Shown here: positions 2,203 to 22,240 of the stretch, piece after piece
Layout: every line of letters starts with the position of its first letter
Position numbering within the stretch: the first letter of the stretch is position 1
Source: a virus
Length of the DNA: 24,133 nucleotides
Strand: one strand, 5' to 3'
Virus record (IMG/VR): IMGVR_UViG_3300025890_002989
Location: 1 to 24,133 of that record
Notes under the pieces: generated by a model
Told to the model about the DNA's origin: nothing
What the model saw: only the letters and a program-made list of their open reading frames with translations
Databases searched by the model: none
Position numbers and translations under genes: made by a program

Positions 2203-2857
2203 TATATATTTTTTTCCTTATTATGTTATTACCTTTCTCACCAGTCCAGTGCATAATTCTTTTTTTATTGCTATCGGTAGAATCGTGTTGAACATCAATT
2301 CGAAGCCAGTTATACATATGAGGCAGCTGGCAGATGTGAGTAACCTGATTAAGCGGATTACCCATCATAAAATGTAAAACTTCTTGATCGCCTTGATTTG
2401 GTTTCTTGGCGCATGCATCGATCCATGCGTTTAATATTCTTGGTTTATCTATAATTGCCATAACACCCGAATTAAACCATTTCTCTCCAGAACGTTTAGA
2501 CCATGGTCTGTCTTCGCACATCCCGAGCTTGTCTGGTTCGCAATGATTCCATATGTCTTCGATATTTTCTAGAACTTCGCAATCAGTATCAAGCCAACAG
2601 AGTTTTTTTGCGTTGATAAGTTGCAGTGTTTTGGGCTTGAGAAACCAGCCGTTTACTCTTTGTTTAGGAATACTAATTATATCATCAAATGTGCTTATCT
2701 TGTGTATCCATTCAAGCATTTCTGCAGAAACGCCAAAGTCTGCAAAAACAATAGGGATTGTTTTATTGTGTTTTTTAAAATTTTTGTGGAACCATTCTAG
2801 CTGCCACTCAGTCTTTTCATCACATCCTGTAACAAAAACTTTATCGTACGATTTCAT
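2195..2857 (-). CDS. GT8-like glycosyltransferase, 220 aa
   Basis: A GT-A-fold glycosyltransferase. WLDTDCEVL at 88-96 carries the DxD metal/nucleotide-sugar motif (D90, D92). FNSGVM at 128-133 is the 'NsG' motif of family 8, GDQEVL at 156-161 matches the 'DQ' helix, and HWTGEKG at 203-209 matches the closing H-x-x-G-x-x-K loop of glycogenin-like enzymes. All key motifs are intact, so it is likely active with a UDP- or similar nucleotide sugar. It overlaps the upstream GT25 gene by 17 nt, so the two are almost certainly co-translated. Acceptor unknown. Confidence 0.8.
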   Translation of the reverse strand: MKSYDKVFVTGCDEKTEWQLEWFHKNFKKHNKTIPIVFADFGVSAEMLEWIHKISTFDDIISIPKQRVNGWFLKPKTLQLINAKKLCWLDTDCEVLENIEDIWNHCEPDKLGMCEDRPWSKRSGEKWFNSGVMAIIDKPRILNAWIDACAKKPNQGDQEVLHFMMGNPLNQVTHICQLPHMYNWLRIDVQHDSTDSNKKRIMHWTGEKGNNIIRKKIYNG

Positions 2858-3488
2858 AACCTACCCCATCATGCCAATTATGTTTCGCCAAACAACCTTG
2901 CGTTTTCTGTATTGTGGTGAAAGAGTCTTTTGCGACTACTGGCCAAGGGTAATACTCTTGCAACCAAGGGAATTTGTCAAGGTGTAAGAAAACGTCTGTT
3001 GGCCCACCATCAACTTTCGCGCGCGCGATCAGCTCTTTAGCGCCAGCTGGTTTTATTCGATACGCATGCGCCCCAGGAAAGTAACGCTTGGAAACAAGAG
3101 GATTAGTTCCTAACATTAGTGGGGTGTTGAAGTTGCCATAACTTGGTTTGCCTAAAGATATCGCTTTGTCATAATTTATAAACTCAGGTAACTCTCCAAC
3201 GCAGAAAGCATCGTGCTCGAAGATTTGATATTCTACTTTATCCTCTACACATTTTTTCCATAGAGCATAATGAGAAAGAAACGCCGCAATGCAGGACTCA
3301 AGATAAGAATACTTTTCTTGGAACCCAGAAACAGGTATTGATTCTATTTTCAATATCTCTAGAGGGTTGTCCTTTGGAGTAATGCCGTAGAACTTTAATA
3401 CTTTAAAATCTGGCATCGATCGAATACATCTTTCTGCAGCTTGCTCAGAAAGACTATTGTCTTTTATAGTTATTACGAATGATTTCAT
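2841..3488 (-). CDS. GT25-like glycosyltransferase, 215 aa
   Basis: Family 25 (LPS/LOS-type) glycosyltransferase. Motifs: CIAAFLSHYALWKKC at 66-80 (the 'GC..SH...w' helix of GT25), FEHDA at 90-94 (acidic metal site), GAHAYRIKPAGAKELI at 139-154 (the 'G..aY.is..GA..ll' motif), and PTDVFL at 163-168 (the 'p.D..l' motif). Family members transfer galactose or other sugars to lipooligosaccharide or to collagen. Two related genes lie at 3485-4186 and 10513-11232. It overlaps both neighbours (4 nt upstream, 17 nt downstream). Confidence 0.78.
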   Translation of the reverse strand: MKSFVITIKDNSLSEQAAERCIRSMPDFKVLKFYGITPKDNPLEILKIESIPVSGFQEKYSYLESCIAAFLSHYALWKKCVEDKVEYQIFEHDAFCVGELPEFINYDKAISLGKPSYGNFNTPLMLGTNPLVSKRYFPGAHAYRIKPAGAKELIARAKVDGGPTDVFLHLDKFPWLQEYYPWPVVAKDSFTTIQKTQGCLAKHNWHDGVGYEIVR

Positions 3489-4186
3489 AATGTAGTAGTA
3501 GTTGAAACTAACCCTTGCACTTTTGTATAATATTTTTTAGTTTGACCCAACATTCCAGGTAGTAGTTGTTTGCACATAATAGCGTCGTTGGGCCAAATGC
3601 CATGCTGATCAACCAGCTCAATAAGTTTTTGTGCACCAAGGGGTTTTATATAGTAGGCTGAATTGCCTGCAAGTCCTTGTGGCACATGTTGTTCATCAAT
3701 ATATGGAGGAGGAGCAATTGTGTAATTTCTTGCTTGTGCTAAGTTATGATATTCTTGCGAGCGCCTCGTTGCGCCTCGAGGATCGTTAATCCCAATGATC
3801 TGGTACTTAGATTTTTCTAGATGATCCCAATTTACTTTATTAACAAATTCCACATCATGTTCTAGAATAAGAAAATGCTCTTGTGTTTCCACGCATTCTT
3901 GCCAGAGGAGATAATGAGAAAAGAAACAAGCAATACGAGTATCGGTATTTCCAACATAGGGCGAAAGACTCAGGCCTGTTGAAAAATCAAGCCTAGGTTC
4001 TTTCGTCGGATATGTGTATGATAACCCATACTTCTGTTGCAGATCTTCAATTTCCCATGGGCGTATAGCTTTAAATATGTTCATCCAAAACGCAGGGCCA
4101 TTAACCTTTCTTGCACTACGGCGACAGGCGTGATAACCTCTTTCTGAAATCCCATTTCCGTGCATTACAATAATTTTTACTTTCAT
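3485..4186 (-). CDS. GT25-like glycosyltransferase, 233 aa
   Basis: Second GT25-like gene, adjacent to the first. RIACFFSHYLLWQECV at 84-99 is the SH helix, LEHDVEF at 108-114 the acidic motif, GNSAYYIKPLGAQKLI at 174-189 the 'Y.i...GA..l' motif, and PNDAIM at 199-204 the D motif. I start it at the ATG at 4186 (protein MKVKIIVM), 1 nt after the stop of the upstream HAD gene. A longer reading from 4213 would overlap the HAD domain and adds residues not expected before the first beta strand. Compared with the 215-aa paralogue it carries a longer region (about 125-170) between motifs, which may set acceptor specificity. Confidence 0.75.
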   Translation of the reverse strand: MKVKIIVMHGNGISERGYHACRRSARKVNGPAFWMNIFKAIRPWEIEDLQQKYGLSYTYPTKEPRLDFSTGLSLSPYVGNTDTRIACFFSHYLLWQECVETQEHFLILEHDVEFVNKVNWDHLEKSKYQIIGINDPRGATRRSQEYHNLAQARNYTIAPPPYIDEQHVPQGLAGNSAYYIKPLGAQKLIELVDQHGIWPNDAIMCKQLLPGMLGQTKKYYTKVQGLVSTTTTL

Positions 4187-4187
4187 T

Positions 4188-4469
4188 TTAAAATATCCAT
4201 TCCGCCTTATCATCTACCCACACATCATAATGCGGTTTGTTCATCCATAATTCTGTATACCGAACACCCCAGTCTTCTAATTGTTGCTTAGTAAGTGCGC
4301 TCCAGTCTTTTCCAGAGACAGCGCCGCGAGCTGTCCAGTAAATAATCTCATGCCCCGCGTCATATAAAGCGTTTATTTTTTCAACGTGTTTTCTAATCGC
4401 CAATGCAGTATAATAATTACCGTCTAATGTTAAACAGATAGTCTTATCTATGTCGACAATAAATCTCAT
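4188..4469 (-). CDS. Small HAD phosphatase, 93 aa
   Basis: A cap-less HAD-superfamily hydrolase. Motif I is DIDKT (6-10, DxDxT with the nucleophile at D6), motif II is the Thr of YWTARG (T46), Lys lies in MNKPHYD (K78), and motif IV is the acidic pair D86-D87 in WVDDKA. The start at 4469 is chosen because it begins directly at the first beta strand; a longer frame open to 4592 runs back inside the cupin gene. At 93 residues it is about the minimal Rossmannoid core. It lacks the Cys/His zinc loop of GmhB, so it is not a straightforward heptose-bisphosphate phosphatase. Next to a sugar kinase and nucleotidyltransferase, a sugar-phosphate phosphatase role is a reasonable inference. Confidence 0.75.
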   Translation of the reverse strand: MRFIVDIDKTICLTLDGNYYTALAIRKHVEKINALYDAGHEIIYWTARGAVSGKDWSALTKQQLEDWGVRYTELWMNKPHYDVWVDDKAEWIF

Positions 4470-4471
4470 TT

Positions 4472-4825
4472 TTATTTTTTTCCTTTTCCTACTCTGTAAT
4501 TGTCCTCTACAGAATCTGGTGTCGACACCTCGATAATAGTGCCCTGTTCGAGACAGTAGAGCTGATGCGGGAGCATAGGTTCGTTTCTCCATACATCGCC
4601 AGTATTTAGGATTTTTTCTGAAACGCTAGCGTCAGACGTGTCTATTAATTTTAGAATAAATTTGCCAGACAACACGTACCAAGTTTCGTCTTTCTCTTTA
4701 TGCATGTGCATAGAAAACGAACAACCAGAATTAAAGTTCATTAATTTTCCGCAATACAGTTCGTTGGTCGCCCAGATTATTTCTGAACCCCACGCTTTCT
4801 TCACGGTTCCTTCTAATCTAGTCAT
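4472..4825 (-). CDS. Cupin, sugar-phosphate isomerase-like
   Basis: A 117-aa single-domain cupin. Motif 1 is HMHKEKDETWYVLSG (40-54) with metal ligands H40, H42 and E47; motif 2 is GDVWRNEPMLPHQL (76-89) with H87. The N-terminal AWGSEIIWA and CGKLM resemble the cupin domain of type II mannose-6-phosphate isomerases and related sugar-locus cupins. All four metal ligands are present, so an active enzyme is plausible: an isomerase or epimerase acting on a sugar phosphate or nucleotide sugar. Its ATG overlaps the kinase stop (ATGA) and the HAD gene begins 2 nt after its own stop, placing it firmly in the activated-sugar unit. Confidence 0.72.
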   Translation of the reverse strand: MTRLEGTVKKAWGSEIIWATNELYCGKLMNFNSGCSFSMHMHKEKDETWYVLSGKFILKLIDTSDASVSEKILNTGDVWRNEPMLPHQLYCLEQGTIIEVSTPDSVEDNYRVGKGKK

Positions 4826-5574
4826 ATCTCCTCCAGTGTCGGAGCATAAACTCCTAAGTGTTGTACAGTAACTGCTGCAGCTCTCATGGCAAATTCGATT
4901 GCGTCAGACTTACTATTTGTTTGAAGAAACTTCACAATAAATGCAGCAAAGAAAGTATCTCCGGCTCCGCAGACATCAACCATCTCAATTTCAGGAGGAG
5001 TCCATTCTTCTTTGCCAGATATAATCTTACCGCCACCTCCAGTAACGATTAATTGATCTGGAGTAGGATGGTCGCTTGTTCTACGGTTCCACTCATCAGT
5101 ATTTATTTTAGTAATAATTCCGTCAAATTGTTTGAGGTCTGGCTTCTTGGTATCGATAAACATTGGGCAATGGCAGTTAGCTCGAATATATCTTATCGCG
5201 TCATAAGATATAAACCCTTTGTTATAATCAGAGATGACAACGGCGGCGGGGTTCTCGCCTGAGATTTCTTCGGGATCAAACGGATGCCATCCAACTAGAG
5301 GGATGTCAACTCGCAACAGCTGGTGCTGTCCACTAAAATATCTTATTTTTTGTTCGACATACCTCGTATGAAGATCGATCTCTGCTCCAAAATTTTCTAA
5401 ATTGGCAGCAACGTTCATTGCCATACCTTCTCGGCACGTTTCAATTCCTGGCCAGTCTAAAACAGGAACAGGAGCCTCTGGACTTATTCGGTTAACAGTC
5501 CCAGATCTATACGCGTCCCAACAGGTTTCGCCGATTAATATAATCTTCAAGGGTGTTTGTGGTAGCTTCATCAT
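4822..5574 (-). CDS. HldE-type (PfkB-fold) sugar kinase, compact
   Basis: Ribokinase/PfkB-fold kinase of the HldE N-domain type. Evidence: ILIGETCWDAY (12-22), the near-signature RISPEAPVPVL (29-39) typical of heptose-7-phosphate kinases, GMAMNVAANL (50-59) where the family usually has GGAANVA, RVD (88-90), VVISDYNKG (112-120), and the ATP-site DVCGAGDTFFA (200-210) with catalytic D206. At 250 aa it is shorter than the usual approximately 310-320-aa kinase domain. The segment between NFGAEIDLHT and the following RYVEQKIRYF appears to lack the usual 'GDDEAG' region. The first 68 nt overlap the nucleotidyltransferase gene. Substrate by family: a heptose-7-phosphate or related sugar phosphate. 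Confidence 0.8.
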   Translation of the reverse strand: MMKLPQTPLKIILIGETCWDAYRSGTVNRISPEAPVPVLDWPGIETCREGMAMNVAANLENFGAEIDLHTRYVEQKIRYFSGQHQLLRVDIPLVGWHPFDPEEISGENPAAVVISDYNKGFISYDAIRYIRANCHCPMFIDTKKPDLKQFDGIITKINTDEWNRRTSDHPTPDQLIVTGGGGKIISGKEEWTPPEIEMVDVCGAGDTFFAAFIVKFLQTNSKSDAIEFAMRAAAVTVQHLGVYAPTLEEI

Positions 5575-5968
5575 TTACTCTTTCAAAAAAATCGATATCG
5601 ATTAGATCTTCACCAACAATATCTTTGCCTTTCCAATCGGATCCAATAACCCTCACGTCTGCTCTAGACATAAGAGAAATCAATTCAACGTCGCTGTTAA
5701 ATGACCAAACTTCGTTAATGTCAATTATACGAGACAAAATCTTGGCTCTAACCGGCAAAGGGTTAACTGGGCGATCTATTCCTTTATTCTGCCGTATTCT
5801 TTCGTCACTATCAATAGCGCAGATAACATATCCTAAAGACTTGGCGTACATGAACAAATCGATGTGGCCTGTATGTAGAATGTCAAACGCGCCATTCACT
5901 AAAACTTTTGTCTTATGATTTAAACACAGAGTCTCGGGATTAGAAGGATAGAGAGGAGTAGCTTTCAT
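5507..5968 (-). CDS. HldE C-domain-like sugar nucleotidyltransferase
   Basis: A 153-aa cytidylyltransferase-fold enzyme. VNGAFDILHTGH at 24-35 contains the (H/T)xGH nucleotide motif. SDERIRQNKG (54-63) with PVNPLPVRAKIL (67-78) matches the 'sD.svr..KG..RPv.p...R...l' region of HldE C-domains, and VIGSDWKG (107-114) matches the 'kGgDy' motif region. In bacteria this domain makes ADP-heptose from heptose-1-phosphate, usually fused behind the kinase; here it is a separate gene placed before the kinase. Its ATG overlaps the methyltransferase stop (TAATG). Whether ATP or CTP is used cannot be read from the sequence. Confidence 0.8.
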   Translation of the reverse strand: MKATPLYPSNPETLCLNHKTKVLVNGAFDILHTGHIDLFMYAKSLGYVICAIDSDERIRQNKGIDRPVNPLPVRAKILSRIIDINEVWSFNSDVELISLMSRADVRVIGSDWKGKDIVGEDLIDIDFFERVNDEATTNTLEDYINRRNLLGRV

Positions 5969-6471
5969 TAAACTTTTCGAGCTGTCGCGTAGAACGAATG
6001 GTTAAGGTCAAAACCGTCGGTAACAATAACTTCTCTCCATTTTCCTCTAGATTGAAGGCAATCACGAATGATATGAGGTTCTAAAACGTTTACGTGTTTT
6101 CGGTTATGCCAAGGTTTCCAGTACTCTTGCTGATAACTAGGTAGGTATAAAAACAGAAGACCACCAACTTTTAATTGTTCATACCAGTAGTCTAAAACAC
6201 CAACCCAGTCGGATAGATGCTCGAGACAATGTGAAGAGAAAACATAGTCTAATTCATTTTCAGGAAGGTTCAAGGCGTGCCATTCATCGTCAAAGTCTAA
6301 GTCTACAGGTATTGCTCCTGGAAACGCCCATTCCGGTTTCATACATCCAACATCAACACCTTTACCTTTCAATAACTTCGAAGCAAATGGAAATGCGTAT
6401 TGAGATGCAAATCCTTCTTGTTGCAGTTTCGGGTAAATCTTACCTCCAAATTGTATCGTGTGATCGCTCAT
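5968..6471 (-). CDS. SAM-dependent methyltransferase, 167 aa
   Basis: Class I methyltransferase of the Methyltransf_11 type. GVDVGC at 38-43 is motif I (SAM glycine loop, degenerate), DLDFD at 57-61 follows strand 2, and VFSSHCLEHL at 77-86 is the typical 'd.V....vlEH' motif. A W/H/Y-rich stretch, including WKPWHNRKHV at about 118-127, follows. I start at 6471: that ATG overlaps the previous stop as ATGA and has AGGA 8 nt upstream, whereas the ATG at 6486 lies inside the previous gene. The location suggests it methylates a sugar or nucleotide-sugar intermediate, but the substrate is unknown. Confidence 0.75.
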   Translation of the reverse strand: MSDHTIQFGGKIYPKLQQEGFASQYAFPFASKLLKGKGVDVGCMKPEWAFPGAIPVDLDFDDEWHALNLPENELDYVFSSHCLEHLSDWVGVLDYWYEQLKVGGLLFLYLPSYQQEYWKPWHNRKHVNVLEPHIIRDCLQSRGKWREVIVTDGFDLNHSFYATARKV

Positions 6472-7268
6472 AATAATTTCCTGCATGCATTAAAAATCAT
6501 ATCAACTGTCATCCATTCATTGGCGTCAGCACAATGTGAACATTCGTAAGTGTTACCGCAGGGCGACTCTGGATGATCATATTCTATATTGATATGACCA
6601 GGATATTCGCCAATCGTTGTGTTTGCTATACCACCCTGTAAAACAACGCAAGGTATACCCATACCTCCTAGTGCGTGGATAAACATTCCGATATATCCAA
6701 CACCGAATTTCGCGTTTCTTAACATGGCAAAAGAAACACGAACGTCTGTGCTCTCAATATTTATCGCGCCTTTAATTAAAGGCTCTTTGTAGATCCCTTT
6801 AGGCATTATTCGAACACAAGGCAGGTCAACAAGGCCGTCAAGCCTGTCTACTAACTCTTGATACTTCTTGATCCCCCAGTTTTTATTCGAACCGAAGAAT
6901 GTTTTTTTAAAGTCAGGATTAATCGCAACAAACTCTTTTGGTACATTGTGTTCTTCTAAAATTTTATCTGCGGTTTCTAATTCTTTCTCGGTGAATCGAA
7001 TATGAAAAGGTTTAATCTTATATGGCCGCCAGACCATTTTCTTACCCAGAATAGTCCTTTTCTCTTCTGAGCACATATACTGTATTCTATAGTCTGTTTT
7101 TTCTGGAGTGGTGTCTCTTGTGTTGACAGTTACTCCGCTGTCCGATAGAAACTCAACGTTATTAAAAAGAGGAGATTTACCACTACCAACTGGCCTTACC
7201 AGTTGGCCAGTTTCTTTAAAGATTTTCTCCGCTTCGCCGAGAAAAAACATATCATCCCCCATTCCCAT
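6468..7268 (-). CDS. GT9-like (heptosyltransferase-fold) transferase
   Basis: A 266-aa GT-B-fold protein resembling family 9, the ADP-heptose:LPS heptosyltransferases. The start MGMGDDMFFLGEA (1-13) corresponds to the family's N-terminal 'GiGD.i...' loop. VAINPDF (114-120) and NKNWGIKKYQELVDRL (128-143) match the 'i...p....k.W....f..L...L' region. GYIGMFIHALGGMGIPCVVLQGG (191-213) corresponds to the 'D.G..H.a.alg.p.v.lfg' donor site, although the usual Asp is replaced (YIG). The C-terminal CGNTYECSHC (237-246) is a possible zinc or disulfide site. It is shorter than typical heptosyltransferases (about 320-350 aa). It starts 1 nt after the previous stop. Confidence 0.68.
   Translation of the reverse strand: MGMGDDMFFLGEAEKIFKETGQLVRPVGSGKSPLFNNVEFLSDSGVTVNTRDTTPEKTDYRIQYMCSEEKRTILGKKMVWRPYKIKPFHIRFTEKELETADKILEEHNVPKEFVAINPDFKKTFFGSNKNWGIKKYQELVDRLDGLVDLPCVRIMPKGIYKEPLIKGAINIESTDVRVSFAMLRNAKFGVGYIGMFIHALGGMGIPCVVLQGGIANTTIGEYPGHINIEYDHPESPCGNTYECSHCADANEWMTVDMIFNACRKLL
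7186..7206. repeat. Inverted repeat inside the GT9-like gene
   Basis: CCAACTGG (7186-7193) and CCAGTTGG (7199-7206) form a perfect 8-bp inverted repeat with a 5-nt loop. It lies wholly within coding sequence, near residues 20-28 of the GT9-like protein. No U-tract follows on either strand, so it is not a terminator. It could fold in the mRNA near the 5' end of the gene. Confidence 0.4.
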
Positions 7269-7269
7269 T

Positions 7270-7920
7270 TTAACTGCTAATACGTTTTGTTGGTCCAGGA
7301 GGTTTCTCTTGAATATCTCCTAAGTCATCTTCAGTGGCGTCACGGGCGATCACTGCATGTCCGGCACCTCCTCCAGTTAACCGTTCAACAACGGACCATT
7401 CGGGATTGTTTTGGCAAAATTCTTCAATGACTTTAAGTAAAGCCCAATCGTTTTGTTTTATATCATGAAAGGCAATGTACTTCTTAACAGACATATGATG
7501 TGTTTGTAGTTCTTTTTTTAAATGAGAGGGGTGGTGCAAACTGTCGATATGAAGCATATCGACAGAACTAACAGTTGATACATCTAAAGAACTGACGCCA
7601 TGGCTTTTTAATGTCTTTCCTTTACGTTCACAATATTCTACTAATAAAGGTTTCAGATATTTTTTAAAGTGATTCAGGTTAATATCGATCCCAACGCCGT
7701 GTTTAACGCTGTCTTGAATCATCATTGCCATTAATGAACTGCCTTGGAATATTCCAATTTCTTTAACAGATTCACATTTGGCTGCATATCGCATTAGAGA
7801 ACGCAAACGCTTAAACGAATTTTGTCTTTCCTCTGCGATGTCTTTGGTGAGAAGAGTTTCTTGTATAGCCTGAGCTTCCTCGACCGTGTTTGCTGATTTA
7901 TATTCTTCCCATGCTCTCAT
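7270..7920 (-). CDS. Methyltransf_24-like methyltransferase, 216 aa
   Basis: Class I SAM methyltransferase of the O-methyltransferase / cephalosporin-hydroxylase-like group. VKEIGIFQGSS (52-62) is motif I ('iEiG...G.S'), VGIDI (76-80) is the strand-2 acidic residue, VDMLHIDSLHH (120-130) is the metal/substrate motif ('d.ihIDg.H'), and YIAFHDI (148-154) is the following 'G....DD'-like strand. The set is well preserved. Proteins of this type methylate small hydroxylated molecules including sugars. It lies between two GT9-like genes, which argues for a glycan substrate. The last about 20 residues are proline/lysine-rich and probably disordered. Confidence 0.72.
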   Translation of the reverse strand: MRAWEEYKSANTVEEAQAIQETLLTKDIAEERQNSFKRLRSLMRYAAKCESVKEIGIFQGSSLMAMMIQDSVKHGVGIDINLNHFKKYLKPLLVEYCERKGKTLKSHGVSSLDVSTVSSVDMLHIDSLHHPSHLKKELQTHHMSVKKYIAFHDIKQNDWALLKVIEEFCQNNPEWSVVERLTGGGAGHAVIARDATEDDLGDIQEKPPGPTKRISS

Positions 7921-7930
7921 AATTTATTCC

Positions 7931-8725
7931 TTATGTGTAAGTATTAACTTTAGCGCCATGTTTATGCATGCGATACACATGATGCGAAGATTTACCTTTG
8001 ATGTTTCCTATTGGATTATAAATGTCTATTAAATTCCATGCAACATATAATGAAGCCATATGCAACATGCCGGAATCGATTCCAACATGACCTTCAGAGT
8101 TTGCCATACAAAACCCAACGTGTTTTAAAGAATTTCTTAAGTGGCGGCTTTTAGCCTGTCCACCGACGACTACTAGGTCTAGTCCTTTTATTCTATACTC
8201 ATTTTCAATTTTATTCAACATTAACGGAGACAATTGTCTACTGCTGTCAGCTGAATCCCATTGAACAGTTACATACCTCTGAGGCAAAACAATTTCACTA
8301 GAACAATCAATTGGTTCAAGTTTTGGTGACTCTGTAAGGTATTCATCCGCGTCAATAAGGTCAATGCCTTTAACTGGACCAAGAGGTTGTAGATCAATAT
8401 GATCTTTATAGTAGTAAGTCTGTGGATCTTCGACCCCTTGATTTTTAAGATATTCTAACCAATCTGGTTCTGATAAACCGCAGACTGGCCATGCTTTAAC
8501 TTTGACTTTACCTCGAGTCATTTCACTCAATGCTGCCCATGTGTCTTTCTTAGCTTGCTTACCATATTTGTCAGAGGTTAAATGTAGAACAACATCACAC
8601 ATATGTGCATCTGCATATTTCTGGCCAAATAGAACCGCGTGTATCCTATCGCCTACTCCTGGAGTTGTATAGGGCACGCCCTTTCGCCACATAGACATCG
8701 AACGTATTGCGATGTTTTTTACCAT
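7931..8725 (-). CDS. GT9-like glycosyltransferase, 264 aa
   Basis: A GT-B-like protein with a recognisable C-terminal donor site: YVTVQWDSADSSRQLSP (151-167) in the position of the family 9 'i.p.....r.....' strand, LVVVGGQAKS (184-193), and GHVGIDSGMLHMA (212-224), very close to the 'fvG.DSGl.HlA' motif of heptosyltransferases. The N-terminal TTPGVGDRIHAVLFG (20-34) carries the expected GxGD loop. This donor site is better preserved than in the GT9-like gene at 6468-7268. The start at 8725 overlaps the upstream methyltransferase gene by 7 nt. It likely uses a nucleotide-activated heptose-like sugar; acceptor unknown. Confidence 0.68.
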   Translation of the reverse strand: MVKNIAIRSMSMWRKGVPYTTPGVGDRIHAVLFGQKYADAHMCDVVLHLTSDKYGKQAKKDTWAALSEMTRGKVKVKAWPVCGLSEPDWLEYLKNQGVEDPQTYYYKDHIDLQPLGPVKGIDLIDADEYLTESPKLEPIDCSSEIVLPQRYVTVQWDSADSSRQLSPLMLNKIENEYRIKGLDLVVVGGQAKSRHLRNSLKHVGFCMANSEGHVGIDSGMLHMASLYVAWNLIDIYNPIGNIKGKSSHHVYRMHKHGAKVNTYT

Positions 8726-9576
8726 TGGGCATTGCCTAATTCAATTTCATATCTTGTAGCGTTACAAGGCGAGTCAAATTCTGTTGGATAAACTTCTTCC
8801 GATTCATCCCATTCTACTAGATCATTGCGTATCCATGTGACCTCAAAGGTCTCCGCCACTGGAGGTTTACCTGGAATCTTATAGAAACCTGACCAATTGT
8901 TTGCATGTACATGGCAAGGAGTAAAGTGTTTTCGAAGTTTCTGTAGCGCGTTCTCGATAAGGTCTGTGGTATGTGCTTGTGAAAAATAAGAAACAAACCA
9001 ATGCATCTCTACACAAAGCTGAGAAAAACCTTTAAGGTCGTCTGGATTCATAGAAGAAAAGACATCCCATTCTGCTCCTTCACAGTCCATCTGCAAAAGC
9101 ATGTTGTCTTCATTAGAATGGTTATTGTTCGCGATCATTGTCTTTAAGGTCTGCAGTTCACCCTTGTTTTTAGGACCAATCCCTATTTTTTGAATTGTTC
9201 GGTTTGGTGTAGCAAACCTGCTACCGTCAACAGTATGATCATACATCCATATATGGTGACCATATGCTTCAATTGCCTCTTCAAACTTAACTGTCTTACC
9301 AATGCCAATAGAATAGGCAACCTTGCCGCCTTTTAAGAGATCTTCTATAAAAACATATCCACCATCATTCTGTTCGCCGATTCTAACTTTTTTCATTCCC
9401 TTTGGTTTTTTAGGATTTAATAGCGACATTACATCATATATTCTGTCCTGATTGTTTAAAAAATTAGCAAGTTGAAAAGGCGAGTTAATTTTTTTCCATA
9501 TCGTCGAAGGATGATCAACCCTGAAGGTTTTTTCCTTCTTATCTTTTTTATTCATTTGTTGGAATATTTCATTCAT
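8719..9576 (-). CDS. FkbM-type methyltransferase, 285 aa
   Basis: Methyltransferase of the FkbM/Methyltransf_21 type. EQNDGGYVF (68-76) and AYSIGIGKTV (87-96) cover the N-terminal region and the SAM-loop strand, and MDCEGAEWDVF (163-173) is the family hallmark 'iDvEGaE..vl'. LCVEMHW (187-193) is the next strand ('i..E.h'). FkbM-family enzymes methylate hydroxyl groups of sugars and polyketides. The first about 60 residues are lysine-rich and precede the domain; an internal ATG at residue 8 is an alternative start. It overlaps the radical SAM gene by 8 nt. Confidence 0.72.
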   Translation of the reverse strand: MNEIFQQMNKKDKKEKTFRVDHPSTIWKKINSPFQLANFLNNQDRIYDVMSLLNPKKPKGMKKVRIGEQNDGGYVFIEDLLKGGKVAYSIGIGKTVKFEEAIEAYGHHIWMYDHTVDGSRFATPNRTIQKIGIGPKNKGELQTLKTMIANNNHSNEDNMLLQMDCEGAEWDVFSSMNPDDLKGFSQLCVEMHWFVSYFSQAHTTDLIENALQKLRKHFTPCHVHANNWSGFYKIPGKPPVAETFEVTWIRNDLVEWDESEEVYPTEFDSPCNATRYEIELGNAQW

Positions 9577-10525
9577 CAGTTGTAGATCCTAGTGCGTTAA
9601 TAAAATCGAAAGATGGTTTACCAAATAATGTACCATCTACATTACATTTATTACAAGGTTTTTCTGTGCGGTTGCCTTTTTTTAACTTGTTTCTTATCTT
9701 TGTCATTGGTTTGCCAAACCAAACATCACTCAGGCTTTGTGTAATCAAATTACCCACCACTTGCTCTCTGTTCCAATCATTGCAACAAAGAATACAATCA
9801 CCGTTCCAATCAACAAACATCTTATAGAATGGATAGTAACAGGGCTTGTCCTTGACAGCTTCAATTGTCGACTCGTCAATACCCATCCAGTCAACAACGC
9901 CACTTCGATTGTTTAACACGAGGCCATGGTTCTCCATACCGCCCCAGTGCACTCTATACTTATACCTCTCTTGAGAAATGCCGGCAAGATCAAACAACTC
10001 GTCAAAATGGTCTACCTGTTCCATACCATCATACAGATTCACATAGATGATCGACATACCTGCATCAAAGATTCTTCGAGCGTAGTGCTCGTCTAGCTTG
10101 TCGCCGTTGGTGTTACACTCAATGACATTACTTGGTCTGTGTTTACGAAACACACTAATAATCTCTGGGAACCAAGGGTTTAGAAGATTCTCGCCGAAGC
10201 CACTAAAAGATATCTTACCTTCGAAGGAAGAACGCTCGAGCTCCTCTGCAATGATTGTAGCGCCTTTGACTGTTAGATGTAGGTTACGATTATCATAGAC
10301 TTTTGGGTCGTGTCGAGGACAGAACACACAGGTTCGATTGCATAGTTCTGTAGTATTAATCTCGATCGTCAAAATAGAGTTCAATGCATTTCGTTCTTTA
10401 ATTTTATCCCAATGCTCGAGCTCTTGTTTTTTTCGATGTTCAATCATTTCCCATTGATCAACTGCGACCATTGGTATACGATTATTACCTTCTGCTCCTG
10501 GAATCTTAGCCACTATAAACCCCAA
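9569..10525 (-). CDS. Radical SAM protein with SPASM-like C-terminus
   Basis: A 318-aa radical SAM enzyme. TTELCNRTCVFCP (58-70) gives the CxxxCxxC cluster motif (C62, C66, C69). FSGFGENLL (108-116) matches the 'sGGEPll' SAM-binding strand and ECNTNGD (136-142) the next conserved turn. At the C-terminus C229, C244, C247, C248, C291 and C294, with VDWNGDCILCCNDW (238-251), form a SPASM/twitch-type auxiliary-cluster region. Such enzymes modify peptides, proteins or sugars by radical chemistry. No obvious precursor peptide lies beside it; the neighbours are glycosyl- and methyltransferases, so a sugar or glycoprotein substrate is my preferred reading. It overlaps the upstream GT25 gene by 13 nt. 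Confidence 0.85.
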   Translation of the reverse strand: MGFIVAKIPGAEGNNRIPMVAVDQWEMIEHRKKQELEHWDKIKERNALNSILTIEINTTELCNRTCVFCPRHDPKVYDNRNLHLTVKGATIIAEELERSSFEGKISFSGFGENLLNPWFPEIISVFRKHRPSNVIECNTNGDKLDEHYARRIFDAGMSIIYVNLYDGMEQVDHFDELFDLAGISQERYKYRVHWGGMENHGLVLNNRSGVVDWMGIDESTIEAVKDKPCYYPFYKMFVDWNGDCILCCNDWNREQVVGNLITQSLSDVWFGKPMTKIRNKLKKGNRTEKPCNKCNVDGTLFGKPSFDFINALGSTTDE

Positions 10526-11232
10526 CTCGTTGTAACATATTGCGTATTGAAAACAACAGGGCTGGGGTTAATGTACTCAACCTTGCAATTCTTTGTGTTT
10601 AATATAAAATCTGACTGGTCCAAGCCAATAGTCAATGCAGCCTCGAGCATTTTCTTTGCTCCTGCTGGTGTGATAGCATATGCAGCAGTTCCAGGAACCA
10701 TATAAGAATTCTCCCAAACGTTAGGTTTATTATACACTAACGGATAAGATTTATCATCCAAAAGATTGTTATACTTTTCTTTCATTGAAACAGGATAGTT
10801 CCGTATTCCTTTCTGCACTGGATATTTTTTATTGGTAAAAGCGTCACCCATATTCAGTATAAGATAATCTTCAAATTCATATTCTTCAGCGTCAGCAATA
10901 CAAATTATATCGTGTTCAATAAAACATTGCGTTTCGTTAGACTCTATGACTTTCTTCCAGAAATATAGATGATTGTATACACAAGCTCTTTTAGTTTGCC
11001 AGACTTGATCGTTTCCACTGTGCATCATCCATAGTCGACCTTTCTTAGCAAACTTTGTATCAAAATCATTTCGTAGCCGAGCACCTTTCACTAGATCATC
11101 AAAGTCTGAACGAACAACGCCCTCTACTAGAGAAACATCCCATCCGTTATGCGCTCTAAACGACTCTAATGATTCCTTTCCAACCCTTTTAGAATCGGGG
11201 TTGGAAGGAGTGTAGATAATCTGAGCTTTCAT
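10513..11232 (-). CDS. GT25-like glycosyltransferase, 239 aa
   Basis: Third GT25-like gene. RACVYNHLYFWKKV (82-95) is the SH-helix equivalent (His retained, Ser replaced by Asn), CFIEHDI (103-109) the acidic motif, GTAAYAITPAGAKKML (181-196) a very clear family motif, and DQSDFIL (205-211) the D motif. The N-terminal half (about 10-70) is longer and more divergent than in the two paralogues at 2841-4186, so acceptor choice may differ. Its ATG overlaps the previous stop as ATGA. Confidence 0.75.
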   Translation of the reverse strand: MKAQIIYTPSNPDSKRVGKESLESFRAHNGWDVSLVEGVVRSDFDDLVKGARLRNDFDTKFAKKGRLWMMHSGNDQVWQTKRACVYNHLYFWKKVIESNETQCFIEHDIICIADAEEYEFEDYLILNMGDAFTNKKYPVQKGIRNYPVSMKEKYNNLLDDKSYPLVYNKPNVWENSYMVPGTAAYAITPAGAKKMLEAALTIGLDQSDFILNTKNCKVEYINPSPVVFNTQYVTTSWGL

Positions 11233-12014
11233 AACTTTTTAAGTAGTTCTTTGAAGTTTTCACCTCGAGCCGGCAGTTTATCCTTTAAGAAAAAATGCAC
11301 GAAAGAGCATTCTTTAATCTTTGTATTGGCGGTAAACAAACCATTCCACTTCCAATGCAGATCTTTGGTGGGCACTTTTGAATTGTATATGAAATAATTA
11401 AGCAGAGTCTGATCTGTGCTCCATTTCCACGCACCCTGACCGTCGACAAAGTCAGTAAACTCGTTCTGCATAATCCAATCTTTTGGAGACAAACCTTTTA
11501 GGAATGGTTCGAATTGCGCAGAGTTAAGAAGAATCAAGCCCATGTTATAGAAAGAGTAACCCATCTTAGATACTTCTCGGTATTTTCCTTTCTTGGAAAG
11601 ACCACGATACTGCATTGCAGAATAATTGATTATCTTCGCAATGTACTGATCGGTGATAGGCATTGAGGATTCAAGGACAGCACCAAAGGCATGGTCGGTA
11701 CCAAAGTCTTCGAATATATTTTCTGCAGACTCACGAATGTAAATATCAGCGTCGACAATTGCAATCTGATCATATTCTTTTAGATGTACAAAAGCGTTTT
11801 CTTTTTCGTAGATGGGAAGAAACCCACCATGTTTTTCATAAGACTCTTTACTGCGGTTTGTTGTAAAGACATTTGGCTTGATACGAAGGATAGGAGTTCT
11901 TTGTACAATGTGCTCGATGTTATGACGAGCACAATACTTTGCTACCGAATCAACACAACCATCATATAACTTAGATTTCTTGCCTACGTAAACTTGATAT
12001 ATCAATCTTCTCAT
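11229..12014 (-). CDS. GT8-like glycosyltransferase, 261 aa
   Basis: GT-A-fold transferase: IAIVDADIYI (84-93) carries the DxD motif (D88, D90), YNMGLILLN (156-164) is the 'N.Gv.l.n' motif, STDQTLLNYF (199-208) the DQ motif, and VHFFLKDKLP (239-248) a closing H...K loop. It starts at 12014, and the last 44 nt of a small basic reading frame (11971-12129) overlap it in another frame. It is only distantly similar to the GT8-like proteins at 2195 and 12718, so these look like separate acquisitions or old duplicates. Confidence 0.75.
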   Translation of the reverse strand: MRRLIYQVYVGKKSKLYDGCVDSVAKYCARHNIEHIVQRTPILRIKPNVFTTNRSKESYEKHGGFLPIYEKENAFVHLKEYDQIAIVDADIYIRESAENIFEDFGTDHAFGAVLESSMPITDQYIAKIINYSAMQYRGLSKKGKYREVSKMGYSFYNMGLILLNSAQFEPFLKGLSPKDWIMQNEFTDFVDGQGAWKWSTDQTLLNYFIYNSKVPTKDLHWKWNGLFTANTKIKECSFVHFFLKDKLPARGENFKELLKKL

Positions 12015-12129
12015 GATTTATTTTCTTTCGATTATCAGTTTGTTGATGCCGAACTTTCTTTCGTTCGGCTCTATATTTATCGTTTGTTCTTTTCTTGTTA
12101 CCAGAATCAAATTTAGAATATTTCGCCAC
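11971..12129 (-). CDS. Small basic protein, 52 aa, GTG start
   Basis: A short frame beginning at GTG (12129-12127) with AAGG roughly 10 nt upstream. The protein begins MAKYSKFDSGNKKRTNDK and is very rich in Lys, Arg, Asn and Gln with no hydrophobic segment, suggesting a nucleic-acid-binding or disordered protein. Without it the gap between the 47-aa gene and the GT8 gene would be the longest non-coding stretch in this region. It overlaps the GT8 gene by 44 nt in another frame and contains a hairpin (12048-12069). Function unknown; it could also be a spurious frame. Confidence 0.45.
   Translation of the reverse strand: MAKYSKFDSGNKKRTNDKYRAERKKVRHQQTDNRKKINHEKIDISSLRRQEI
12048..12069 (-). other. 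Stem-loop between lysozyme and GT8 genes
   Basis: GCCGAAC (12048-12054) pairs perfectly with GTTCGGC (12063-12069) around an 8-nt loop. On the minus strand it lies about 34-55 nt before the ATG of the GT8-like gene and inside the 52-aa frame. No U-run follows, so it is not an intrinsic terminator; an mRNA structure affecting processing or translation is possible. Confidence 0.45.
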
Positions 12130-12131
12130 TG

Positions 12132-12275
12132 TTACTTACCTTGACCTCTATATTTTTTATAATTCGCTTTCTTTCTTTTATTCATAGAGGATGTATTTAA
12201 ATGTCCTCTACCAATAGAAGTACCTTTGGGAGCATGCTCTACCTTGTTAGTGTTTGCGCTTCCTCCCTTTGCCAT
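12132..12275 (-). CDS. Small basic protein, 47 aa
   Basis: ATG at 12275-12273 overlaps the lysozyme stop as TAATG. The protein starts MAKGGSANTNKVEHAPKG and ends SSMNKRKKANYKKYRGQGK; it is glycine- and lysine-rich, strongly basic and lacks a hydrophobic core. The SSMNK...KKYRGQGK ending is one I associate with small conserved proteins of marine T4-like phages, though I cannot confirm this by search. A nucleic-acid-binding or virion-packaged role is possible but not shown. Confidence 0.65.
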   Translation of the reverse strand: MAKGGSANTNKVEHAPKGTSIGRGHLNTSSMNKRKKANYKKYRGQGK

Positions 12276-12721
12276 TATACATTCTCCATACGAGACATCA
12301 GTCTTTCTGCGCGATTAGTTACTTGATTATACCACTTCGAATCGCGTCCTTCAAGCGCTGCTGTTTTCCAATCACCGTTTTCTAACGCAGCTGTGAATTT
12401 TTTAAACTTGCTCAGTCTAGTTCTACCCATATTGAACATCATGTTGACCACGACTTGTTGCACTGTATCGGGGAATTCGTCAAAAGTCCCTTCTCCGTAT
12501 AAAGCGTAACACTCTTCGATAGCGGTGCTAAGGTCTTTTTCGAAGCATTCTTTGACTCTTTCTTCTGATACTGGCGTTCCAATATCGGACCCATGCTCAG
12601 GATCTGTTTCGAGCACAAGATGTCCGACCCCAAACGTGGCATATCCCAAGTGGTCGTTGTAAATCTCATATTTGACGCCTTCGTCTACTTTTAGTGTTTC
12701 GAAAATTTCTTCTCTGTTCAT
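12275..12721 (-). CDS. T4-type lysozyme (endolysin, GH24)
   Basis: A 148-aa muramidase that cleaves peptidoglycan at lysis. The catalytic set lines up with T4 lysozyme with a constant offset of three: E14 in VDEGVKYEIY, D23 in YNDHLGYATFGVGH, T29 in the same block (E11/D20/T26 in T4). VNMMFNMGRTRLSKFKKF and the SKWYNQVTNRAERL ending match the T4 C-terminal helices. There is no signal peptide, so it would need a holin for export. It lies between two sugar-transferase genes (ATGA overlap upstream), an odd location since the candidate spanins are about 6 kb away. Confidence 0.92.
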   Translation of the reverse strand: MNREEIFETLKVDEGVKYEIYNDHLGYATFGVGHLVLETDPEHGSDIGTPVSEERVKECFEKDLSTAIEECYALYGEGTFDEFPDTVQQVVVNMMFNMGRTRLSKFKKFTAALENGDWKTAALEGRDSKWYNQVTNRAERLMSRMENV

Positions 12722-13377
12722 TGATTTTCCTTAAGTTGTTTTGCTTCTTGTATCCACTCTTCAGCAAAGTCACAGTTCTCATATTCAGGAAACCATGGTC
12801 CGCCGTCTGTATAATGAATAATGTTTGGTTTATCTATATCGAAATAGTATCCAGACAAATAGTTCCAAGTGTGGTCAATAGAGCCAATTTTATCTGCCCA
12901 TCTCATTTGATGTAAGTAAGAAGGATCGACAATATTAACCATCTCTGGAGTTAGTTTCCAACACGCACGATTATTATAGAGCATAACTGATGACCAATTT
13001 TTTCTTGGATAAACATGCTGTTGTTTACCGTCCATCTTAAATTCGCCTTTGGGGTTATAGTCGTGTTGTACACAACTAACATCACAAGATTCGTCTATGT
13101 TATCCAAGATTTTTAAAACATTAGCGTTACATAAAATATCACAATCAACAAAAAGAGAATATCCTTTATAGTCGCTGAGAAAAGGAACAAGGAATCGAGT
13201 CATTGTGAATTCGGTTGATGCTTTAAGATCGTGTTGTCGACGAAATATACCTTTGTCTATCAACTCAGATCGCACAAGAGGGATAATTTCGACTTCTGTA
13301 GAATGATTTAATATCGATGCTCGTGCAACCTGATACGCTTCATCTTCTCTGGGATCGTAACCAATAAAAACTTTCAT
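12718..13377 (-). CDS. GT8-like glycosyltransferase, 219 aa
   Basis: GT-A-fold transferase. It begins MKVFIGYDPREDEAYQVA (the 'vfiGyD.re..a' opening common in phage and LPS-locus GT8-like proteins). FVDCDILC (76-83) is the DxD motif (D78, D80), NWSSVMLYNN (127-136) the 'sSv.l.n' motif, and IIHYTDGGPWF (186-196) a strongly conserved ending in this group. Motifs are complete. The gene overlaps the sialyltransferase-like gene before it and the lysozyme gene after it by ATGA. Confidence 0.82.
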   Translation of the reverse strand: MKVFIGYDPREDEAYQVARASILNHSTEVEIIPLVRSELIDKGIFRRQHDLKASTEFTMTRFLVPFLSDYKGYSLFVDCDILCNANVLKILDNIDESCDVSCVQHDYNPKGEFKMDGKQQHVYPRKNWSSVMLYNNRACWKLTPEMVNIVDPSYLHQMRWADKIGSIDHTWNYLSGYYFDIDKPNIIHYTDGGPWFPEYENCDFAEEWIQEAKQLKENQ

Positions 13378-13994
13378 TCTACAAATACTATTTTCGTGTT
13401 AAATTCTTTTTCGAAAAGAGGTAACATTTTTTGCTCTACATCATATCTATGATCTCCGTAATTTTTCCAATCCTTGCCTCTTGTGACAGACCAACCAAAC
13501 TTACCGCTGCGCACATTGTCATATCCGAGGAGATAAATCTTAGAAGGTCGAAGGTAATGACAGGTGTAAAGAATTGTATGTGTCCCAGAGGACATATGAT
13601 TGTGTCCTAGGGTTGGGTGCGAATACTTTTGAGATTCTTGAGGGTTCCTTGACCAATCGTCTGTCCTCATATCTCGAAAAGTTTGATTCCAATGACGACA
13701 GAGCTCCTGATTACATTTAACAGTTTCGCTATTGTACTCGGTATCATAGTTTTGAGATTCATGACGACTGTCAATGTAAACCCATTTCTCCACGCCTTTT
13801 AATTTTGACAATTTTTTATACTGATGCGGAGAACCTCCAACAGCGGTGGTCTTGGTACCATACCATTCAGGTTTTTCTTTGACATATTTGATAGAGTTGG
13901 CTTTTTGTCTTATAACATATTTGAACGAATCAATGTATTTGCCATATTGTTTACGAAGTATGCTGGGGCCATGACCAACTATTATAGCTTCCAT
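13374..13994 (-). CDS. GT29/DUF115-like (sialyltransferase-type) protein
   Basis: A 206-aa protein with an N-terminal nucleotide-binding loop IVGHGPSIL (5-13), followed by IDSFKYVIRQK (21-31), which resembles the L-sialylmotif region ('vG.g.sl......iDs...ViR.n'). Near the C-terminus SSGTHTILYTCHYL (135-148) and KIYLLGYDN (152-160) resemble the S-sialylmotif or the DUF115 core. Family 29 enzymes use CMP-sialic acid, but I cannot distinguish that from related nucleotide-sugar transferases. It is the first gene of the sugar island, starting 1 nt after the PhoH stop. Confidence 0.55.
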   Translation of the reverse strand: MEAIIVGHGPSILRKQYGKYIDSFKYVIRQKANSIKYVKEKPEWYGTKTTAVGGSPHQYKKLSKLKGVEKWVYIDSRHESQNYDTEYNSETVKCNQELCRHWNQTFRDMRTDDWSRNPQESQKYSHPTLGHNHMSSGTHTILYTCHYLRPSKIYLLGYDNVRSGKFGWSVTRGKDWKNYGDHRYDVEQKMLPLFEKEFNTKIVFVE

Positions 13995-21502: not shown

Positions 21503-21867
21503 ATCTTCCTTAGTTTGTCAACAACGTGTTGATCCATTGTTATACCAGTATATTTATTATTCTCGATAATTGAAAGTTTGATTAAAAACGGTTTTACAAC
21601 AGGCCAGTGTTTCTCTTCCAATTTGTACTCGAGCATCTTCAACCCAGCAGGAATAGTGAAAACATTGAATATGACAACCAAATGGTTTAAAATAAGTCTT
21701 TCTGCTAAGGCGCCTTGATCAATGTATCGATTGAGCAACCTTTTTACGTATTTGAATCGTTTAATATCTTCGTAGAATTCCTCTGCGTCTATACATGTTG
21801 GATTATAGAAATGTCTTGCGGCAAATAAAGTAAATGTATCTTCACTGAGTGTCTCGAATAGCTTCAT
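21499..21867 (-). CDS. Conserved T4-like phage protein, 122 aa
   Basis: A helical soluble protein. FTLFAARHFYNPTCIDAEEFYEDIKRFKYVKRLLNRY (12-48) and LAERLILNHLVVIFNVF (54-70) form the segment I associate with an uncharacterised T4-like phage family ('LFA...Y.nP.c....EF.eDl.rfkyikrLl.ry'). The ATG at 21867 has AGGA 7 nt upstream and lies inside the last 26 nt of the IscU gene. Function unknown; it is followed by the 196-aa unknown, with which it may work. Confidence 0.68.
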   Translation of the reverse strand: MKLFETLSEDTFTLFAARHFYNPTCIDAEEFYEDIKRFKYVKRLLNRYIDQGALAERLILNHLVVIFNVFTIPAGLKMLEYKLEEKHWPVVKPFLIKLSIIENNKYTGITMDQHVVDKLRKI

Positions 21868-22240
21868 GTTTCATCCTATAATCTTTTATCGCAGCTTTGA
21901 TCGCATCTTCTGCAAGCACACTACAGTGGATTTTGACTGGTGGTAATGCGAGTTCTTCTGCGATGTCGGAGTTGGTAATACTCCCAGCTTCATCAAGACT
22001 GCGACCTTTAACCCATTCGGTAAGGAGGGAGGAAGAAGCGATAGCACTTCCGCATCCGTAGGTTTTAAACCGAGCATCTTCGATAATTCCATCATCACTC
22101 ACTTGTATTTGTAAAAGCATTACATCACCACAAGCAGGAGCGCCAACCATTCCGGATCCTACGTCTTCTGCTTCTTTATCTAGGCTTCCCACATTACGAG
22201 GATTCTTGTAATGATCCATCACTTGTTCAGAGTACGACAT
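21842..22240 (-). CDS. iscU: IscU-type Fe-S cluster scaffold
   Basis: A 132-aa, full-length scaffold on which Fe-S clusters are assembled before transfer to apoproteins. All functional residues are present: C37 and D39 in APACGDV, C63 in YGCGSA, K103, H105 and C106 in LPPVKIHCS. LPPVK (99-103) is the HscA chaperone recognition motif, so it may plug into the host Isc machinery. The opening YSEQVMDHYKNPRNVG is characteristic. No cysteine desulfurase or chaperone gene is near. It lies between the thermonuclease-like gene and conserved phage unknowns, overlapping both, so it is a true phage-borne gene rather than an assembly join. The radical SAM enzyme at 9569 is one possible client. Confidence 0.93.
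   Translation of the reverse strand: MSYSEQVMDHYKNPRNVGSLDKEAEDVGSGMVGAPACGDVMLLQIQVSDDGIIEDARFKTYGCGSAIASSSLLTEWVKGRSLDEAGSITNSDIAEELALPPVKIHCSVLAEDAIKAAIKDYRMKHEAIRDTQ

Follow-up and report, generated by a model that had tools for sequence, protein, structure and literature searches.

A recurrent phage gene cassette with HldE-type enzymes, a cupin and no GmhA as a probable route to nucleotide-activated heptose

We analysed a virus record of 24,133 bases (IMG/VR record IMGVR_UViG_3300025890_002989, positions 1 to 24,133; hereafter the window), which encodes on its minus strand, as for all the genes under discussion in it, a nucleotidyltransferase, a short kinase, a cupin and a small HAD phosphatase. 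We consider it probable that this unit is a phage-encoded route to a nucleotide-activated heptose, of the adenosine diphosphate (ADP)-heptose type, in which the cupin replaces GmhA. The preliminary description of this DNA had treated the unit as a one-off, but it proved to be a widespread phage cassette, present in more than 100 viral loci, whose cyanophage versions carry heptose or lipopolysaccharide annotations. In the window, its core consists of the following genes:

5507-5968, minus strand: HldC/HldE-C-like nucleotidyltransferase, 153 amino acids (TIGR02199, 9.1e-22; PHROG 7878, 6.4e-31)
4822-5574, minus strand: short HldA/HldE-N-like kinase, 250 amino acids (TIGR02198, 1.7e-28; predicted fold; tree)
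4472-4825, minus strand: cupin, 117 amino acids, candidate sugar-phosphate isomerase (PHROG 7851, 4.9e-38)
4188-4469, minus strand: small cap-less HAD phosphatase, 93 amino acids (PHROG 1238, 3.7e-23)

Both activating enzymes named in the preliminary description, a nucleotidyltransferase resembling the C-terminal domain of HldE and an HldE-type kinase with the RISPEAPVPV signature, were recovered by profile searches. The best family of the nucleotidyltransferase was rfaE domain II (TIGR02199), at 77.4 bits and below the curated cut-off of 181.5 bits, and the protein carries the motifs NGAFDILHTGH, KGIDRPVNP, GSDWKGKDIVG and ATTN, with the HxGH- and STT-type motifs present as HTGH and ATTN. Its cyanophage homologues are ~39-48% identical to it. 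Likewise, rfaE domain I (TIGR02198) was the best family of the kinase (99.7 bits, below the curated cut-off of 345 bits), in which we found RISPEAPVPV (residue 29), LRVD, ISDYNKG and GAGDTF. When an AlphaFold2 model of the kinase (predicted local distance difference test score, 93.3) was compared with the PDB, the top seven matches were all HldA of B. cenocepacia (including 4e8y/4e84; 3.6e-19 to 5e-16), followed by ribokinases as the next family (1e-12). The kinase therefore has the features expected of TIGR02198, namely the RISPEAPVPV loop, the GAGD catalytic motif and, as predicted, the HldA fold; family, motifs and fold place it within the HldE group with its catalytic residues kept. It is about 65 residues shorter than HldA (~315 amino acids), and the split phage homologues are similarly short. 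In the kinase tree, the split phage-type kinases formed a clade (support 99) in which a copy from a Bacteroidetes contig, L173, was nested, and the fused kinase-nucleotidyltransferase forms are the likely sister of this clade (support 74).

Viral contigs were scanned twice, once with the kinase and once with the cupin as seed; each scan gave at least 80 loci, and cassette members were scored with profiles built in this analysis. Nucleotidyltransferase, kinase and cupin were found as a unit in well over a hundred loci of viruses, more than expected by chance; the loci are related and were picked by similarity, and the counts that follow are descriptive and not independent. The nucleotidyltransferase and the cupin were each found in 75 of the 80 kinase-seeded loci listed, and the kinase in 69 of the 80 cupin-seeded ones. 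After removal of duplicates, the listed matches of both scans comprised 123 distinct kinase loci, which had a cupin in 118 cases and a strong HldD-like epimerase in 75. A GmhB-like HAD-IIIA phosphatase, whose best model was heptose 1,7-bisphosphate 7-phosphatase (5.5e-38), was present in 27 of these 123 listed loci and the small HAD in 21, the two never occurring together (0 loci; Fisher p 0.007). Of the HldD-like epimerases, all 99 have the Tyr and Lys of YxxxK, and 98 of the 99 have a second Lys as in HldD, a catalytic residue that we take to be K178 of E. coli HldD. A C6 epimerase would be of use only if C6 of its sugar is a stereocentre. Some phages encode kinase and nucleotidyltransferase fused in the HldE order; one example is viral contig L125 (L125:6900-8099; PRK11316, 1.2e-81), where the fused gene occurs together with an epimerase, the cupin and a GmhB-like gene.

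That the sugar is a heptose is fairly well supported. We also considered that HldE-type enzymes could have been recruited for another sugar, such as a hexose or pentose phosphate, with the cupin acting as a mannose/lyxose-type isomerase or as an epimerase. The scores under the HldE cut-offs and the shortened kinase would fit such a recruitment, as would the D-lyxose, L-ribose and mannose-6-phosphate isomerases touched by the cupin profile and the aldolase, E1/transketolase-like and dehydrogenase genes added in some cyanophage clusters. We nevertheless regard it as unlikely: HldD-like C6 epimerases that keep both bases recur in related cassettes, sister cassettes include a GmhB-like phosphatase and, in a Bacteroidetes operon described below, phage-type genes stand beside a heptosyltransferase and a true HldD.

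In agreement with the preliminary description, which saw no GmhA-type isomerase and took the cupin as the only isomerase candidate of the unit, SIS-type GmhA (TIGR00441) was not found in the window, nor in any of 44 related records (0/44), including contigs up to 331 kb. With a profile built on real GmhA proteins, GmhA was also absent from all listed kinase and cupin loci. As a positive control, GmhA was matched in 8 out of 10 bacterial HldE genomes, and seven of these matches were full-length. In the reverse search, we collected 80 viral contigs with a true GmhA; among them, the kinase-bearing ones encode an enzyme of the longer, conventional type and lack the cupin. Viral contigs among L318-L397 carry such phage-borne sets of GmhA, HldA-like kinase, transferase and GmhB; unlike the window, they combine a full-length kinase with a true GmhA and have no cupin beside the kinase. 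GmhA and a cassette-family cupin do co-occur in two viral contigs that lack the kinase (L371:9881-15649 and L385:9881-15929), in the second of which the cupin lies beside a weak nucleotidyltransferase, and the exclusion between GmhA and the cupin is therefore not absolute.

The cupin has the metal ligands H40, H42, E47 and H87, which are invariant in 31 homologues. Assigning its role by fold was abandoned, since the matches are too generic, and the sequence-profile matches, which extend to L-ribose and mannose-6-phosphate isomerases, shift with the alignment used; neither was taken as proof of an isomerase. D-lyxose and D-mannose isomerases share the C2-C4 substrate configuration with GmhA, and for this reason isomerase chemistry is plausible for the cupin by analogy. 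We infer that it is a sugar isomerase and a non-orthologous replacement of GmhA.

The best single clue to the sugar and to the role of the cupin comes from contig L173, and it rests on one metagenome-assembled genome of Bacteroidetes. Here, a permease gene is followed by a phage-type transferase, a phage-type kinase, HldD (375 bits, over the cut-off), a GT9 heptosyltransferase (113 bits) and chromosomal-looking genes. The kinase nests in the phage clade beside that of P-SSM2 (support 87). The presence of a phage-type pair within an HldD/heptosyltransferase operon (L173:9637-12765) looks like a phage-to-host replacement. We found no other HldA in the L173 genome, whereas a GmhA is encoded elsewhere in it (213.7 bits, over the cut-off); the cassette cupin was not found in this genome, where a 36-bit cupin match was the only one. 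Phage kinase and transferase thus sit in a heptose operon of a genome with GmhA, and there the cupin is gone. We rejected the idea that the short kinase is of bacterial origin in general, as only L173 looked chromosomal among five close hits of the genome scan: L172 reads as a phage contig, L174-L176 were judged phage-like from cassette gene content only, and no second short kinase was present in 345 genomes of the phylum of L173.

These data also bear on an alternative in which the product is still ADP-heptose, but the GmhA of the host supplies heptose 7-phosphate and the cupin is an RmlC-like epimerase of the activated sugar or has some other role. The co-occurrence of cupin and GmhA in L371 and L385 speaks for it, as do 11 of the 80 listed cupin loci, which have no kinase nearby and sometimes have a transferase, and a fold search that is not diagnostic for the cupin. 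The presence of the cupin in nearly all of the 123 listed kinase loci, with GmhA absent, argues in the opposite direction, and so does L173, a Bacteroidetes user of the phage genes that has GmhA and does without the cassette cupin. Moreover, the lipopolysaccharide (LPS) of marine Synechococcus WH8102 contains neither heptose nor 3-deoxy-D-manno-octulosonic acid (PMC4515613), which makes a host GmhA doubtful there, and phages Sf-CH5 and Sf-CH8, whose given hosts are WH8102, carry the kinase and the transferase. On balance, we hold a supply by host GmhA to be a serious but rather doubtful possibility.

The small HAD protein contains the motifs DIDKT, WTARG, NKPHYD and VDDK, and its profile matches a solved capsule-biosynthesis HAD (9iqw, 1.9e-19). 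The preliminary description was right in listing an HAD phosphatase gene, but the 134-amino-acid open reading frame listed for it is too long: it is over-extended into the cupin, and we rejected it because the homologues begin at MRFIVDIDKT. This start lies at 4469, behind an AAGGA-type site, and yields the protein of 93 amino acids. In the HAD-IIIA test (TIGR00213/PRK08942) the protein was not GmhB, and it corresponds to a small cap-less protein of the EcbF/BcbF type, which would be a candidate bisphosphate phosphatase and an alternative to GmhB. Public labels mislead for the cyanophage members of this family and for the cupin. In P-SSM2, protein 306 is called phosphoheptose isomerase in RefSeq and is an HAD, and 307, called cysteine dioxygenase, is a cupin. 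Similarly, PHROG 1238 (NC_006883.2 PSSM2_311; L002:8719-9063) bears the label phosphoheptose isomerase, yet shows the motifs of an HAD phosphatase and does not match SIS. The PHROG 7851 label cysteine dioxygenase (cyanophage 307) covers what is actually the cassette cupin. Counts of phage gmhA that rest on the phosphoheptose isomerase label may be wrong.

Taken as an ADP-heptose-type route, the unit would work as follows. The cupin would convert host sedoheptulose 7-phosphate to D-glycero-D-manno-heptose 7-phosphate, the HldA-type kinase would phosphorylate this putative substrate at C1, the small HAD would take off the 7-phosphate and the HldC-type transferase would add a nucleotide, probably adenosine monophosphate. 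HldD-type epimerisation at C6 would be added in related cassettes, and GT9-like and other transferases with methyltransferases would build and cap a glycan. The ADP-heptose-like synthesis of the preliminary description is supported by the HldE-type enzymes and by the HldD- and GmhB-like genes of sister cassettes, with heptose phosphate as the putative substrate. Compared with the bacterial GmhA-HldE-GmhB-HldD pathway, with which it shares the kinase and transferase families, the window has a cupin and not GmhA, the shorter kinase, the transferase gene before the kinase gene and a small cap-less HAD as phosphatase.

Several observations weigh against this interpretation. Every window protein scores under the curated equivalog cut-offs, and no HldD-like gene was found on the 24 kb window fragment. 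Neither phosphatase was present in the stretch examined in 75 of the 123 listed loci, which, as stated, are related and selected by similarity. Searches with the cupin sequence and fold list D-lyxose isomerases but also oxalate decarboxylase, quercetinase and KdgF, and L371 and L385 combine GmhA with the cupin. Finally, L173 is one contig and could be mis-assembled; its guanine-plus-cytosine content is fairly even along the contig.

By tblastn, the kinase was found in 31 phage records, all of them cyanophages or marine viruses. P-SSM2 carries the T4-GC families 304 (transferase), 305 (kinase), 306 (HAD), 307 (cupin) and 308 (sugar epimerase), the last being HldD-like (TIGR02197, 4.9e-62), and S-SSM7, S-CAM3, S-SM2 and P-TIM68 have the same families in other arrangements. 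This cyanomyovirus set matches the window in its transferase, kinase (~34-40% identical), HAD and cupin families, and differs from it in that cupin and HAD are swapped or the genes scattered and in the added HldD-like epimerase. The glycan cluster of S-SM2 also includes, near the kinase, genes for a dehydrogenase, an E1/transketolase-like protein and a class II aldolase (L004:4973-7195, 13313-13984). The window phage itself also differs from the cyanomyoviruses, as its class II ribonucleotide reductase is closest to that of the SAR116 phage Puniceispirillum phage HMO-2011 (65%); its PhoH is closest to cyanomyoviruses, and a near-identity search of phage records with the window gave no match.

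Heptose-related LPS genes have already been listed in a cyanophage genome note (PMC7378029), and pelagimyophages have been reported with rfaE (PMC7029224). We found no description of a cassette in which a cupin replaces GmhA, which is weak evidence of novelty as subscription papers were mostly outside the search, and literature searches on ADP-heptose with viral auxiliary genes, and on cupin, heptose and phage, returned nothing relevant. A broader proposal, which we put forward tentatively and at somewhat less than even chances, is that phages widely possess an ADP-heptose pathway of their own, where GmhA has given way to a metal-dependent cupin and HldA to a minimal kinase, and by which some cyanophages put a sugar foreign to the host LPS on cell or virion surfaces. 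If true, marine phages would possess a self-contained heptose route with unexpected isomerase chemistry at its first step, and the role of cyanophage "LPS genes" in hosts with heptose-free LPS would have a testable answer.

The surroundings of the cassette in the window are rich in glycan genes:

7931-8725, minus strand: possible GT9-fold transferase (hhalign 95% over 84 columns; TIGR02193, 0.068)
7270-7920, minus strand: Methyltransf_24-like methyltransferase, below cut-off (PF13578, 4.8e-5)
6468-7268, minus strand: GT9-related glycosyltransferase, C-terminal half detectable (hhalign 98.5% to the GT9 profile, possibly somewhat inflated; no Pfam hit)
5968-6486, minus strand: S-adenosylmethionine (SAM) methyltransferase, Methyltransf_23/11 (Pfam PF13489, 7.7e-8)
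3485-4213 and 2841-3488, minus strand: two GT25-type glycosyltransferases, directly downstream (PF01755, 9.1e-15 and 2.2e-9)
8719-13994, minus strand: remainder of the glycan block, with FkbM-like methyltransferase, radical SAM/SPASM, GT25, GT8-like and GT29-like genes (Pfam and PHROGs)

The eight genes from 8725 down to 4188 are all present in the transcription order previously given (GT9-like, methyltransferase, GT9-like, methyltransferase, nucleotidyltransferase, kinase, cupin, HAD), and neighbours abut or overlap, much as had been described; the nucleotidyltransferase and kinase genes overlap by 68 nucleotides. The two GT9-like genes held up in part: neither matched a GT9 model in the Pfam scan, and profile-profile comparison detected the C-terminal half of GT9 in both. 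For 6468-7268, this comparison used a stricter alignment set, an earlier one having drifted into GT9 members, and a viral relative (L025) is in both profiles, by which the score may be raised. From its neighbours, the product of 5968-6486 is possibly a sugar O-methyltransferase. A T4-type lysozyme gene is interspersed in the block at 8719-13994.

The preliminary description had suggested the virion or the host LPS as the destination of the sugar, and most likely this would indeed be a glycan on the surface of the infected cell or the virion. Genes by which phages activate sugars to modify DNA do exist, with arabinose on the DNA of RB69 and a pentose on that of Shewanella phage Thanatos (PMC6024577, PMC12838424); as in our reading of the window, the activated sugar is phage-made, with other enzymes and DNA as the target. 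Transfer of the window sugar to phage DNA bases appears very improbable, as no base-modifying enzyme was recognised among the window proteins searched and the neighbours are GT9-, GT25- (three genes) and GT8-type transferases and methyltransferases. The radical SAM/SPASM gene (9569-10525) is sandwiched between glycosyltransferase and methyltransferase genes. Further away, the window has a NifU/IscU-like iron-sulfur scaffold gene (21842-22240; PHROG 8429). An IscU-like gene is likewise present in viral contig L385, together with genes resembling those for ferredoxin and GroEL.

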